From: Nostocales cyanobacterium HT-58-2
GTDB taxonomy: Bacteria; Cyanobacteriota; Cyanobacteriia; Cyanobacteriales; Nostocaceae
Direction of reading: 5' to 3'
Length of the DNA stretch: 64,000 bases
Assembly: GCA_002163975.1 (NCBI GenBank)
Contig: CP019636.1
Location: 1,897,001-1,961,000, forward strand
Under the pieces are notes generated by a model. The model had not been told where the DNA came from and searched no databases. It saw only the letters and a program-made list of their open reading frames with translations. The position numbers were made by a program, and so were the translations under genes. This document shows, in pieces, positions 1-7,765 of the stretch. How positions within the stretch are numbered: position 1 is the stretch's first letter; every line of letters begins with the position of its first letter.

Positions 1-1793
1 TAGTTGAAAATTTAGAGCAAGTGCGCTCCGAATTGACATCACAACTGTTTGAATTACAGTCAGATGTTCAACAGCAAAAGGATATCGCCCTAGAAAATTT
101 AGAAAAATCTCAATCGGAGTTTACATCGCAACTTTCAGGATTAGAATCTGACACTAAGCAGCAAAAAGAGAAAATTATTGAAAATTTAGAGCAAGTGCGT
201 TCCGAATTGACATCGCAACTGTCGGAATTACACTCAGATGTTCAACAGCAAAAGGATATTGCCCTAGAAAATTTAGAAAAATCCCAATCAGAGTTTACCT
301 CTCAACTTTCGGGATTAGAATCTGATGCGAAGCAGCAAAAAGAGAAAATAGTTGAAAGTTTAGAGCAAGTGCGTTCCGAATTGACATCGCAACTGTCGGA
401 ATTACACTCAGATGTTCAACAGCAAAAGGATATTGCCCTAGAAAATTTAGAAAAATCTCAATCGGAGTTTACATCTCAACTTTCGGGATTAGAATCTGAT
501 GCGAAGCAGCAAAAAGAGAAAATAGTTGAAAGTTTAGAGCAAGTGCGTTCCGAATTGACATCGCAACTGTCGGAATTACACTCAGATGTTCAACAGCAAA
601 AGGATATTGCCCTAGAAAATTTAGAAAAATCCCAATCGGAGTTTACATCTCAACTTTCGGGATTAGAATTTGATACTGAGCAGCAAAAAGATAAAGTTAT
701 TGAAAATTTAGAGCAAGTGCGCTCAGACTTTCAATCTCTGCTCTCTAAATTACAGCTTGATGCTGAGAAACGGAAAGAACTCATTATAGAAAATTTAGAG
801 AAATCGGGAGATGAGTTTACATCTAAATTTTCACAACTGCAGACGGATGTTCAACAACAAAAGGTTTTCATTCTTGAGAAGTTAGGAAGATTAGAATCAG
901 AATTTGTCTCTCAACTTTCTCAATTTCAGAAGGATATTCAACATAGAAAAAATATCATTCTTCAGCAACTATCTGAGGTAACACCTCCTTCCTCTCCCTC
1001 TATTCCAGAGTCTGCTCCCCCTAAAATTGAGAAGAAAATACATATAGTACCGAACCAACCCGAAGTCAAAGAGTCTACACAGACTCAGGAAGAGTCCAAA
1101 GTTGATAATTACCTCCAACAGGCAGATGTTCTTTTCTCCCAAAAGCGCTATGAAGATGCACTCACTGCTTATAACCAAGCAGTAAAAATCCAGCCAAAAG
1201 ACGCTGTTGCCTGGTTGAACCGAGGCATGGTTTTAGCAAGGATGAAACAGTACAAAGAGGCGATCGCCTCCTACGAACAAGCTTTGAAAATTAAGCCAGA
1301 TTACCATCAAGCTTGGGTTGATCGGGGTGTCGCACTGGGATACTTGCGAAGACACAAAGAAGCCTTTGCTTCTTTTAAGAAAGCGACACAAATTAAGCCT
1401 GACGACGCTGTCGCCTGGTTTAACCGGGGTTTGACTTTGCAAGAGTTGGAACGCTTCGAGGAGGCGATCGCCTGTTTTGACAAAGCCATTAAATTAAAGC
1501 CTGACTTCTTCAAAGCTTGGAATAACCGAGGTTACGCCCTAGTGAGTTTAGGACGCGATGACGAAGCTATTGTCAGCTTCGACAAAGCGCTGGAAATAAA
1601 ACCGGACTATGCTGGTGCTTACTATAACAAAGCTGCCTGTTATGCACTGCAAAGACAGGTTGATTTAGCCCTAGAAAATCTGGAACGGGCAGTTGCAATT
1701 AATCCTAGCTATAAAGAAGAAGCTGCAGCTGATATAGATTTTGATGAAATTGCCAAGGATAAGCGCTTCCGACAATATGTTATGGCAGCATAA
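1..1793 (+). CDS. Coiled-coil / TPR protein, 5' end outside the window
   Basis: The frame is open from base 3, so the start codon lies upstream of the window; the GTG at 21 is only an internal repeat codon. The N-terminal half visible here (to about base 970) is a charged, Gln/Glu/Lys-rich coiled coil built from near-identical 58-residue repeats, each made of two 29-residue halves such as ELTSQLSELHSDVQQQKD and EFTSQLSGLESDAKQQKE. A Pro/Ser-rich linker follows (about 980-1080). Six consecutive TPRs follow at about 1110-1700, with the usual W-L-N-R-G / A-I-A-S-Y-x-x-A-L-x-I-K-P pattern. The end (DIDFDEIAKDKRFRQYV) is a tail often seen on cyanobacterial TPR proteins. It is probably a scaffold; no catalytic domain is visible. 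The cut 5' end may hide a further domain. Confidence 0.85.
   Translation, partial: VENLEQVRSELTSQLFELQSDVQQQKDIALENLEKSQSEFTSQLSGLESDTKQQKEKIIENLEQVRSELTSQLSELHSDVQQQKDIALENLEKSQSEFTSQLSGLESDAKQQKEKIVESLEQVRSELTSQLSELHSDVQQQKDIALENLEKSQSEFTSQLSGLESDAKQQKEKIVESLEQVRSELTSQLSELHSDVQQQKDIALENLEKSQSEFTSQLSGLEFDTEQQKDKVIENLEQVRSDFQSLLSKLQLDAEKRKELIIENLEKSGDEFTSKFSQLQTDVQQQKVFILEKLGRLESEFVSQLSQFQKDIQHRKNIILQQLSEVTPPSSPSIPESAPPKIEKKIHIVPNQPEVKESTQTQEESKVDNYLQQADVLFSQKRYEDALTAYNQAVKIQPKDAVAWLNRGMVLARMKQYKEAIASYEQALKIKPDYHQAWVDRGVALGYLRRHKEAFASFKKATQIKPDDAVAWFNRGLTLQELERFEEAIACFDKAIKLKPDFFKAWNNRGYALVSLGRDDEAIVSFDKALEIKPDYAGAYYNKAACYALQRQVDLALENLERAVAINPSYKEEAAADIDFDEIAKDKRFRQYVMAA
21..716 (+). repeat. 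Four tandem 174-bp coding repeats
   Basis: Units begin at 21, 195, 369 and 543, each opening with GTGCG(C/T)TCCGAATTGACATC. A diverged fifth unit begins at 717. Adjacent units differ by only a few bases, which points to recent tandem duplication. The array probably continues to the left of the window. Confidence 0.9.
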
Positions 1794-4834: not shown

Positions 4835-7765
4835 CTATTTACTAGCGTTGGCACCGCCTACAGCAATTTTATAGTCTGGACTAATTGCATCAGCAGCAGC
4901 AGCAACCTTTTTGACTACGTTTTCAGGTAAGGGAACATAGCCTAGTTGTGGAGCAACCTTTTGACCTTCCGTTAAACCATACTCAATCATTGCTTCCATT
5001 GCTTTGGCTTTTGCAGCATCGGGATATTTCTTGTAAGCCAAAATCCAAGTGTAAGTGACGATAGGATAAGAGCTTTGCCCTTCTGGGTCTGTAATGAAGA
5101 CGCGAAGGTTTTCTGGCAACTGTACTGATTCCAGAGTTTTAGATGCCGATCGCTCACTGGGTGTGACAAATTGACCTGCTTTATTTTGCAAAGCAGCACA
5201 GTTCAGTTTATTTTGTTGAGCGTATCCGTACTCAACGTAACCAATTGAGCCTTGAGTTTGTTGTATTTGGGCGGTAACACCTTCATTGCCCTTAGCGCCA
5301 ATTCCTGCGGGCCAGTTGACAGTTTTGCCATCACCTACTTTGGATTTCCACTCTGGACTAATGGCACTGAGATGTCGCGTGAACACACCTGTAGTACCAC
5401 TACCATCAGCGCGATGTACAATTGTGATTGGTTGGTTGGGCAATTTCACACCAGGGTTAGCCACAGCAATTTTTGGGTCGTTCCAAGACTTAATCGTACC
5501 TAGGAAGATGCCGATATAGACATCTCTTGGAAGTTTGAGTTCCTGTACCCCTGGTAGGTTGTAAGCTAGCACAAGACTAGTTGCAGTCATAGGTAGCAAA
5601 AGGACGCCCCTTTCCACTTTCTTAATTTCTTCATCCGTCATGGCAACATCGCTAGCACCAAAGTCTACAACACCTTTGATAAACTGCTCCACCCCAGCAC
5701 CACTACCAATTGATTGATAATTGACTTGAAGGTTGGGATATTTCCGGTTTAATAAAGCTTGGAACCAAGTTTGGTAGAGAGGTGCTGGGAAAGAGGCTCC
5801 AGCGCCAGTTAACGATACATTGCCACCTAAGTCTGGTATGTTTTTGTTGACGGCACTTGATGATGTTGTGGAAGAAGATGAGTTAGATTCTTGTGGTGTT
5901 GAGAACAGATTGACAACAATCCCAGTAGCAATGACTCCTACTACCCCAGTAGCAATGACTCCTCCTACAGCCAACCCTGCGGTAATCTTAGGAATGTGTT
6001 TTGCAGGTGTCCAGTAGTTTTCAGAAGCATCTGATGATTTGGGAACTGACAAAGGCACAGGTGTAGGTGTAACACCATGAACACTTTGAATTGTTTCCGC
6101 TTGAACTGGCTGCTGTTGCTTGGAAGGCAAAGTGGGACTAAGAGACAAGTTATTGGCTATTGATTGAATAACTTCTCGGTTTCTCAATACTCGTTCTTCA
6201 ATATGAGAAACTTCTGAATCACTCAGTTCCAAAGCTTGCTGAAACCGTCGCAACTCTTCACGAGTTTCATGGCTAATTGGGTACTCACGTCGAATTAATT
6301 CGTGGACTACTTGCTCATACCGTTGCAACTTTTGCTGATACTCCTCTATCTGAGCAGTAATACGAGCTTTAATGGGAGTGACATCTTCATCAGTCAATTC
6401 TAAACGTCGCTGTTGTTGCTGAAGTTCCTGACGTGTTGCTTCGCTAAGTGGATACTCTTTCTGAGTAGCACTTAAAAAGAAATTTTCATACTGCTGTAAT
6501 TTTTGTCTATGTGTTTCTAATTCAGCAAGAACACGGTTTTGAATCAAAACAATATCGCCATCAGCAAGTTGCCATTGTTGCTGTATCTGCTGTAGTTTGA
6601 TACTTGTTGATTCACTTAGAGGATAGTTTTGCCTCACAGCTTTGAAAAATTCTAGTTCATACTGCTGCAAGTTTTTTCCGTAATTCTCAAGTGTTGCAGT
6701 CACTCGTTCCTCTATAGGAACAGTATCCTCATACCCTAGTTGCAGAATTTGTTGAAGATTTCGCAATTCTTGGCGGTCATTTTCACTAACAGTTGATTGT
6801 CTTTTCATCAATTGAGTAAAGACTTGTTCATACTGCTTAAGTTTTTCCCGAAATTCTTGTCTGTAGGGTTCTAAAATCTCGTCTTCAATTGCAGTGGCTT
6901 CTGCAACAGAAAGCCCCAAACGATTTCTTAAAACATCTAAAATATTACGACCGACAAAAGAAACTTCTCCACGATTGATGTACCGTTTGACTTCCTTACG
7001 GTATCTTTCTTTTGGATTCACTGGAGGAACTTTTGTGAGTCGAATTTTGAAGCCTTCTCTAATGGCATAAATCTCTGGCTTCATAGATGGTTGAGTTTCT
7101 CGTACCTTCTTTTTGGCATATTCATGCAACTCATCTATGGATATGAACCCATCTTCATCTAAGTCTGCTGTTCCAGTTTTAATACCCTCAACCAGATAAC
7201 GAGTGTAAATCGATAATTGTGAACCCTCTTGCTCAAAGGAATACTGCGTTGATGAGGATGATGTGAGGATTGCTCTTCCCTCACCACCTAACTGCTCCTG
7301 AATATTAACACTGCCATCATCTCTAACTAATAACCCCTCAGCAAAAGCACCACTAAAACAACAATCTAAAATCACAACTTGTCGCCTACAACGGCTTCTG
7401 TTCATACTTTCTTGAACAAAGCTGGCTGAAACTGCACTTGAACGGATTAATTCTCCTTGGAGATTTTTGCGAGTTTTGTGAGTTGCCAGGTAAAGCCTGC
7501 CTGTATCATCTTTTATCCCATGACCTGAGAAGAAGAACAACACTAAGTCATCTTTGTTACGACCTGCAAATAGATTCTCAATCGCTTCCTCCATTTGCTG
7601 TCGAGCAGGATTGCTGAGTAGGGTGACATCTGCTTGTGCAAAACCACCTATATCTGGATGTAACAAAACTTGTTGTATGGCTTTAACATCCTCAACAGCT
7701 GCAGGCAAAGGGTTCAAACCCGGCTCGTACTCACTCACCCCCACCAGCAATGCTACTTTCGCCAT
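4835..7765 (-). CDS. Membrane-spanning caspase-like protease fused to a PstS-type phosphate-binding domain
   Basis: 976 residues, ATG preceded by GGGAG. Residues 1-245 form a peptidase C14 (caspase/orthocaspase) domain with catalytic His82 (FFFSGHG) and Cys136 (ILDCCFSGA). Residues 201-212 (DLDEDGFISIDE) match an EF-hand loop, D-x-D-x-D-G-x-I-x-x-x-E. Residues 250-530 contain four or five helical repeats of about 60 residues (YPLSEATRQELQQ type). A Pro-rich linker leads to one membrane segment at about 592-620 (Gly/Val/Ile-rich), followed by a Ser/Thr linker. Residues 648-960 form a complete PstS-like domain: GAGASFPAPLY, the FGASD motif (D706) and the phosphate loop R785-x-D-G-S-G-T-T. There is no N-terminal signal peptide, so the likely topology is protease in the cytoplasm and phosphate domain in the periplasm. 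Phosphate-controlled proteolysis is inferred. No pst transporter genes are nearby. Confidence 0.9.
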   Translation of the reverse strand: MAKVALLVGVSEYEPGLNPLPAAVEDVKAIQQVLLHPDIGGFAQADVTLLSNPARQQMEEAIENLFAGRNKDDLVLFFFSGHGIKDDTGRLYLATHKTRKNLQGELIRSSAVSASFVQESMNRSRCRRQVVILDCCFSGAFAEGLLVRDDGSVNIQEQLGGEGRAILTSSSSTQYSFEQEGSQLSIYTRYLVEGIKTGTADLDEDGFISIDELHEYAKKKVRETQPSMKPEIYAIREGFKIRLTKVPPVNPKERYRKEVKRYINRGEVSFVGRNILDVLRNRLGLSVAEATAIEDEILEPYRQEFREKLKQYEQVFTQLMKRQSTVSENDRQELRNLQQILQLGYEDTVPIEERVTATLENYGKNLQQYELEFFKAVRQNYPLSESTSIKLQQIQQQWQLADGDIVLIQNRVLAELETHRQKLQQYENFFLSATQKEYPLSEATRQELQQQQRRLELTDEDVTPIKARITAQIEEYQQKLQRYEQVVHELIRREYPISHETREELRRFQQALELSDSEVSHIEERVLRNREVIQSIANNLSLSPTLPSKQQQPVQAETIQSVHGVTPTPVPLSVPKSSDASENYWTPAKHIPKITAGLAVGGVIATGVVGVIATGIVVNLFSTPQESNSSSSTTSSSAVNKNIPDLGGNVSLTGAGASFPAPLYQTWFQALLNRKYPNLQVNYQSIGSGAGVEQFIKGVVDFGASDVAMTDEEIKKVERGVLLLPMTATSLVLAYNLPGVQELKLPRDVYIGIFLGTIKSWNDPKIAVANPGVKLPNQPITIVHRADGSGTTGVFTRHLSAISPEWKSKVGDGKTVNWPAGIGAKGNEGVTAQIQQTQGSIGYVEYGYAQQNKLNCAALQNKAGQFVTPSERSASKTLESVQLPENLRVFITDPEGQSSYPIVTYTWILAYKKYPDAAKAKAMEAMIEYGLTEGQKVAPQLGYVPLPENVVKKVAAAADAISPDYKIAVGGANASK

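Follow-up and report, generated by a model that had tools for sequence, protein, structure and literature searches.

Why would a cyanobacterium carry a caspase-like protease and PstS, the phosphate-binding protein of the Pst transporter, on a single polypeptide chain? The question is raised by a gene at positions 4835 to 7765, minus strand, of a 64,000-nucleotide stretch, here called the window, of the genome of Nostocales cyanobacterium HT-58-2 (contig CP019636.1, positions 1,897,001 to 1,961,000). The gene is one open frame of 976 amino acids with an ATG start and no internal stop, and the caspase-PstS protein that it encodes (the window fusion) is real, intact and rare. The best single explanation of its architecture, which we put forward tentatively and as somewhat less than probable, is a membrane receptor protease in which an outer phosphate domain would tune a cytoplasmic caspase. 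Its parts are as follows.

4835..7765, minus strand: whole gene (caspase, repeats, membrane helix, PstS); single open frame, with colinear full-length relatives in genomes G494 and G485
7064..7759, minus strand: caspase domain, residues 3-234
7520..7522, minus strand: His82 of an SGHG motif, predicted catalytic from the sequence
7358..7360, minus strand: Cys136 of an LDCCFSG motif, predicted catalytic from the sequence
7130..7165, minus strand: EF-hand-type loop DLDEDGFISIDE, residues 201-212, by pattern; Pfam EF-hand below its cut-off
6149..6907, minus strand: helical repeats, residues 287-539, period 57; predicted helices
5987..6148, minus strand: juxtamembrane stretch, residues 540-593, predicted disordered
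5906..5986, minus strand: predicted membrane helix within residues 594-620
5825..5905, minus strand: Ser-rich linker, residues 621-647, from the sequence; low model confidence up to residue 640
4883..5824, minus strand: PstS domain, residues 648-961
5390..5413, minus strand: phosphate loop RADGSGTT, residues 785-792, aligned to R135-T141 of Escherichia coli PstS

The initial annotation, made from the letters of the window, had described a single uninterrupted gene joining the two domains, and searches with hidden Markov models bear this out. Both ends exceed curated cut-offs: Pfam Peptidase_C14 (PF00656) matches residues 3-234 with 75.9 bits (cut-off 21.4), Pfam PBP_like_2 residues 648-920 with 139.1 bits (cut-off 27), and the NCBIfam PstS model TIGR00975 residues 652-961 with 399.1 bits (cut-off 205). 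A second PstS model, NF008171, gave a match under its cut-off (283 versus 339). The caspase domain also matches NF047832, “caspase, EACC1-associated type” (residues 4-223, 179.9 bits, cut-off 140). The helical repeats noted earlier were recovered as a 57-residue unit of one long and one short predicted helix in about four copies (15 to 26 of 57 identities among the four compared); a minimal structure comparison gave no fold name for them.

A survey of this architecture across cyanobacteria showed it to be rare. A match spanning the protein from the caspase to the end of PstS occurs in at least 3 of 217 genomes of the family, a lower bound because up to three candidates were scored per genome. 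These are the window genome and two genomes of another genus, G494 and G485, whose fusions are 67 and 68% identical to the window fusion. The corresponding proteins, L103 (G494) and L104 (G485), are 951 residues long, with their parts in the same order and both domain assignments over cut-off; L103 is 64% identical to the window fusion over 969 residues (BLASTP). Since two genomes of another genus encode the whole layout in one frame, an assembly artefact is excluded, and a sequencing error, a hidden stop or a chance junction is ruled out. Two fragments come from different records: P0074 includes only the first 23 residues of the PstS region, and the start of P0098 lies within the repeats. Two further caspase-PstS proteins are P0002, which is shorter, and P0151, which is more distant. 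In a class sample of 388 genomes (up to five candidates scored in each, matches listed down to about 2e-108), the window's own match is the only one listed whose frame exceeds 435 residues, and a scan of genome contigs (22 loci) yielded no full-length relatives. Long PstS proteins were sampled as the best 120 of 254, of which 15 were read.

So rare and patchy a protein could be an accidental fusion without PstS function, and its closest caspase relative, P0001/L052 of Brasilonema sp. UFV-L1, which is 90% identical over residues 1-300, indeed has a different C terminus. However, there are two other intact copies, and the ratio of nonsynonymous to synonymous substitution rates (dN/dS) on the PstS half is 0.05 to 0.15, well under 1 (with dS saturated, at 2.1, in one pair). 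We thus regard an accident as quite improbable.

The two functional sites named in the initial annotation are both present. In the caspase half, the DCC motif starts at residue 134, which makes its second Cys residue 136; together with His82 this preserves the His-Cys pair, and peptidase activity is predicted. In the PstS half, the ten positions that we take to be the phosphate contacts read S, F, S, D, R, D, G, S, G and T when aligned to the E. coli PstS chain. This conservation rules out a degenerate PstS domain and suggests that the domain binds phosphate. The free PstS L002 of the same genome has E at the place of D137.

The proposal that calcium might be a second input fared less well. 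The loop DLDEDGFISIDE does have canonical EF-hand spacing, with a Pfam EF-hand score of 14.2 bits, under the cut-off of 25.4. A similar loop, by a relaxed pattern, occurs in 91 of the 119 caspase-bearing homologues, and it is altered in L103, L104, P0002 and the sister caspase L003. A special calcium input is therefore weakly indicated, the loop being a family trait that is altered in these relatives.

The single membrane helix claimed earlier corresponds to the one clear hydrophobic stretch of the protein: the best 19-residue window spans residues 600-618 (Kyte-Doolittle 2.27), and the second, at residues 129-147, reaches only 1.61 and lies inside the caspase core. Two Lys or Arg residues just precede the helix and none just follows it, which fits a predicted topology with the N terminus inside and the C terminus outside. 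The structure model gives predicted folds for both ends of the protein.

The slot occupied by PstS takes other domains in related caspases. All but one (P0098) of the best 120 homologues retain the caspase half, and in 77 of those 119 one or more membrane stretches are predicted beyond residue 240. In the window genome, L003 (G000:C1:4394680-4395744) has a predicted membrane helix and a Peripla_BP_6 domain in PstS's place, a layout also found in P0103 by Pfam and in P0108 and P0120 by precomputed domains. Another sister caspase of that genome, L005 (G000:C1:2974099-2975211), has central and C-terminal DnaJ domains.

Conversely, PstS follows other domains. The Ser/Thr kinases P0135, P0136, P0138 and P0140 carry a predicted membrane helix and then a C-terminal PstS; P0136 is L070:5005-7104 of Calothrix parasitica NIES-267. 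They resemble the window fusion in joining a predicted cytoplasmic signalling domain, a predicted helix and PstS, and differ in having a kinase instead of a caspase and, in P0138 and P0140, altered phosphate loops. P0152 combines a TIR domain, a predicted membrane helix and PstS in one chain. In P0144 a trypsin-like domain precedes PstS, and the sole predicted membrane helix is near the N terminus; P0147 and P0148 probably represent a mispredicted leader ahead of a normal PstS.

These variable partners bear on a different account, in which the caspase would be switched on from inside and cut its own linker, the C-terminal domain would be an exchangeable passenger or effector, and PstS would serve as a tether or scavenger rather than a sensor. 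The window fusion is a member of NF047832, L005 bears DnaJ domains, and passages of PMC7159879 describe up to 50 alternative C-terminal domains together with self-cleavage. Against such a role, the fused PstS keeps its ligand site and no EACC1-like gene precedes the window gene. To our knowledge, moreover, PstS has no toxic or enzymatic activity. On balance this account seems to us rather unlikely.

The published system in question is the EACC1-associated caspase system (System 4), in which, according to those passages, EACC1-caspase pairs have up to 50 alternative C-terminal domains, among them transmembrane (TM) helices with an extracellular periplasmic binding protein (PBP) domain (PMC7159879, 2020). 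The window fusion shares with it an NF047832-type N-terminal caspase, the variable C-terminal slot and the TM helix with an extracellular PBP; it differs from this two-gene system in that no EACC1-like gene lies upstream and its PBP is a PstS with the site kept. No match to two EACC1-like queries was found within 1.2 kb upstream, and a search of the window genome with the EACC1 profile PF19953 gave no match, nor did its controls.

A small gene of about 125 codons directly precedes the caspase gene in L104 (1314-1697) and in 13 of the 29 caspase loci L074-L102; in 11 of these loci it aligns over 119 to 127 of 127 residues (frames not each checked), L079 holds a remnant, and in L074, which is L103, it is split over two frames. 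Thus the small gene before the G494 fusion (L103:7587-7984) occupies two reading frames, and its G485 counterpart is open. One copy (L006:1108-1482) precedes another caspase of the window genome, and none precedes the window gene. The family has 461 relatives, the best 120 of which have no Pfam domain and are almost all unnamed or hypothetical. A single-sequence model is alpha+beta, with a predicted local distance difference test score (pLDDT) of 80.8. PF19953 touches 2 of 37 aligned members (best E value 0.0012) and does not match the L104 copy. The family holds the place of EACC1 and is possibly a distant EACC1.

The window gene itself lies beside a 119-amino-acid frame without a Pfam match and a LeuA-type gene, the next gene upstream. 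None of pstC, pstA and pstB adjoins it, unlike the PstS genes of transporters. At 21-1793, plus strand, the window encodes a protein in which TPR repeats come after a series of long coiled-coil-like repeats that closely resemble one another.

Where did the PstS half come from? Two PstS genes of the window genome stand ahead of pstC-like genes (so named from sequence, the two being 51% alike), and a further PstS is an orphan. The fused domain is 84% identical to L002, the free PstS beside one of these pstC-like genes. In the PstS tree, the window fusion groups with L002 and the free PstS of Brasilonema and Scytonema (support 96), L104 and P0098 group with the free PstS of G375 and G334 (96), and L103 can be placed only within a broader, open group of 25 rows (94). 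A single caspase-PstS clade was rejected by the approximately unbiased (AU) test for both halves, with the groups named after the trees had been seen: P = 4.5e-7 for the PstS half (window fusion, P0098, L103 and L104; tree omitting nine long or distant rows) and P = 5.3e-5 for the caspase half (window fusion, P0074, L103 and L104). In another PstS tree, joining the window fusion with P0098, a group likewise named with trees in view, gave P = 0.0012, and 0.0004 with P0002 added. Joining the window fusion with P0002 was compatible with the data on the PstS side (P = 0.77, the joined tree scoring higher) and on the caspase side (P = 0.09), and a single clade of the four PstS kinases was not rejected (P = 0.063). 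On the caspase side, the sister of the window fusion comprises the UFV-L1 protein and G411.

The junction gives a different picture. We compared the TM-linker segment of the window fusion with those of other proteins and counted how many of 1000 half-wise shuffles reached the real score. For caspase-PstS rows, the counts were 0 (L103), 2 (P0002), 5 (P0074), 31 (L104) and 51 (P0098). Controls gave 189, 220, 391, 433 and 870 for five free PstS leaders, 290, 507 and 975 for three caspase-Peripla_BP_6 proteins and 318 for P0151; no likeness above composition was found to P0001 or to the five leaders. The kinases P0136, P0138 and P0140 gave 103, 139 and 338, but P0135 gave 6, which means that the measure does not single out caspases. 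The junction of the caspase-PstS proteins thus looks partly shared. As a single clade is rejected and yet the junctions seem partly alike, there was either repeated fusion or one old junction whose PstS has since been renewed from a resident gene.

Such closeness to resident genes would also be expected if the fused PstS, like its free relatives, docked on the Pst permease and brought the caspase to a transporter that reports phosphate flux. The 84% identity to L002, which has a pstC-like neighbour, and the proximity of fused domains to local free PstS point that way. However, the L002-type permease was not found in G485 and G494 (best identities 37% and 53%), and docking thus seems unlikely. 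Apart from the fusion, G485 has no PstS that exceeds the TIGR00975 cut-off, and G494 has just one, which resembles L008, the second PstS gene of the window genome (50% to the query). An L002-type permease is present at 77% in G375, which belongs to the same genus. Strong PstS matches (E value 1e-135 or better) occur in 40 of 53 genomes of genus g7, two of them being the fusions; 13 lack one, including several nearly complete genomes. A missing PstS is therefore not unusual in this genus, and two cases do not make an association. Even so, both genomes retain the fused domain although no permease of the L002 type turned up in them, which fits sensing better than delivery.

Finally, the resident PstS could have been copied and attached to a death protease in order to lure a phage or competitor acting on phosphate uptake. 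The fused domain follows local free PstS without forming a clade of its own, and its best Foldseek match is a cyanophage PstS. However, that protein ranks 15th by VIA-align, which makes the match not special; no phage target is known; and G485 retains no free PstS over cut-off to imitate. We consider such a decoy very improbable.

We thus favor the receptor protease. The phosphate-gated reading is built on the anatomy of the protein, on constraint and on comparison. The sequences themselves show the fusion, the conservation of both sites, the close kinship between the PstS half and PstS genes that adjoin pstC-like genes, and the low dN/dS. The PstS domain, outside the cell, would bind phosphate, and its capture there would restrain or release the caspase inside. 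As disorder is predicted on either side of the helix, binding would alter self-association or docking instead of pushing rigidly through the membrane. The phosphate-free state would be the activating one, since passages of PMC7475262 cite phosphorus starvation as a trigger of cell death in Trichodesmium. The output would be proteolysis leading towards dormancy or death.

Several observations weigh against this scheme. In a comparison of the phosphate site in nine further fusion rows (PstS behind caspase, repeats, kinase, TIR or other leaders) and the Calothrix kinase L070, the site is kept in L070, P0135, P0151 and P0152, but the loop differs in P0002, P0138, P0140, P0144 and P0150, and P0098 has Y for F11. 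Flanking charges do not favor an inside N terminus in L003 (none before and two after the helix), P0074 (two and two) or P0152 (three and five). Residues 540-640 are disordered in the model (pLDDT below 50; predicted template modeling score 0.45), so that a coupling path between the halves is not visible. The C-terminal slot is read in the passages of PMC7159879 as holding effectors deployed by self-cleavage, not sensors. Lastly, a scan of upstream regions for tandem Pho-box units, using a pattern that we take to represent them, scored 17 of 24 for the window gene, which is at background, against 20 and 22 for the two PstS genes with pstC-like neighbours. Control of the gene by the phosphate regulon was rejected on this ground.

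The initial annotation had called the fusion an undescribed system, which is too strong. In the parts of the surveys concerned, PMC8283722 (2021) tallies, among 473 cyanobacterial orthocaspases, one with PBP-like_2 and eight with Peripla BP_6, and PMC4933709 (2016) lists Metacaspase|PBP_like_2 once, in a cyanobacterium. These have the same order of caspase and PBP_like_2 as the window fusion, and in those parts they stand as tally lines. The TM helix with an extracellular PBP was likewise in print (PMC7159879), and the outside-in idea had been anticipated, as membrane orthocaspases were proposed to take outside death signals (PMC7475262). The passages of PMC9415839 covered hold nothing on phosphate sensing. 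In open-access main texts we found no paper on a caspase-PstS fusion. Nor did we find there a caspase-linked PBP identified as a transporter-type PstS, caspase-PstS proteins that form one clade on neither half and seem partly to share a junction, the failure to find L002-type PstS and permease in two of three fusion genomes, or PstS on kinase and TIR proteins (no search was aimed at PstS kinases). The window fusion differs from the PstS of the Pst transporter in not being a free lipoprotein, in lacking its own signal peptide and in being tethered to a caspase by a predicted helix.

The window fusion bears on how nutrient stress turns into regulated cell death in cyanobacteria, because a transporter-type phosphate-binding domain and a caspase in one chain would make the link testable in a single purified molecule and a single deletion strain. 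The occurrence of PstS on caspase, kinase and TIR proteins suggests that PstS has an outer sensor role beyond transport. A bolder generalization, which we hold as doubtful though conceivable, is that cyanobacteria own nutrient “death receptors”: single-pass caspases with an exchangeable outer domain (PstS or Peripla_BP_6), with PstS acquired from, or renewed by, the transporter gene already in the genome, in which phosphate outside the cell would decide directly, without a kinase cascade, whether the caspase fires.
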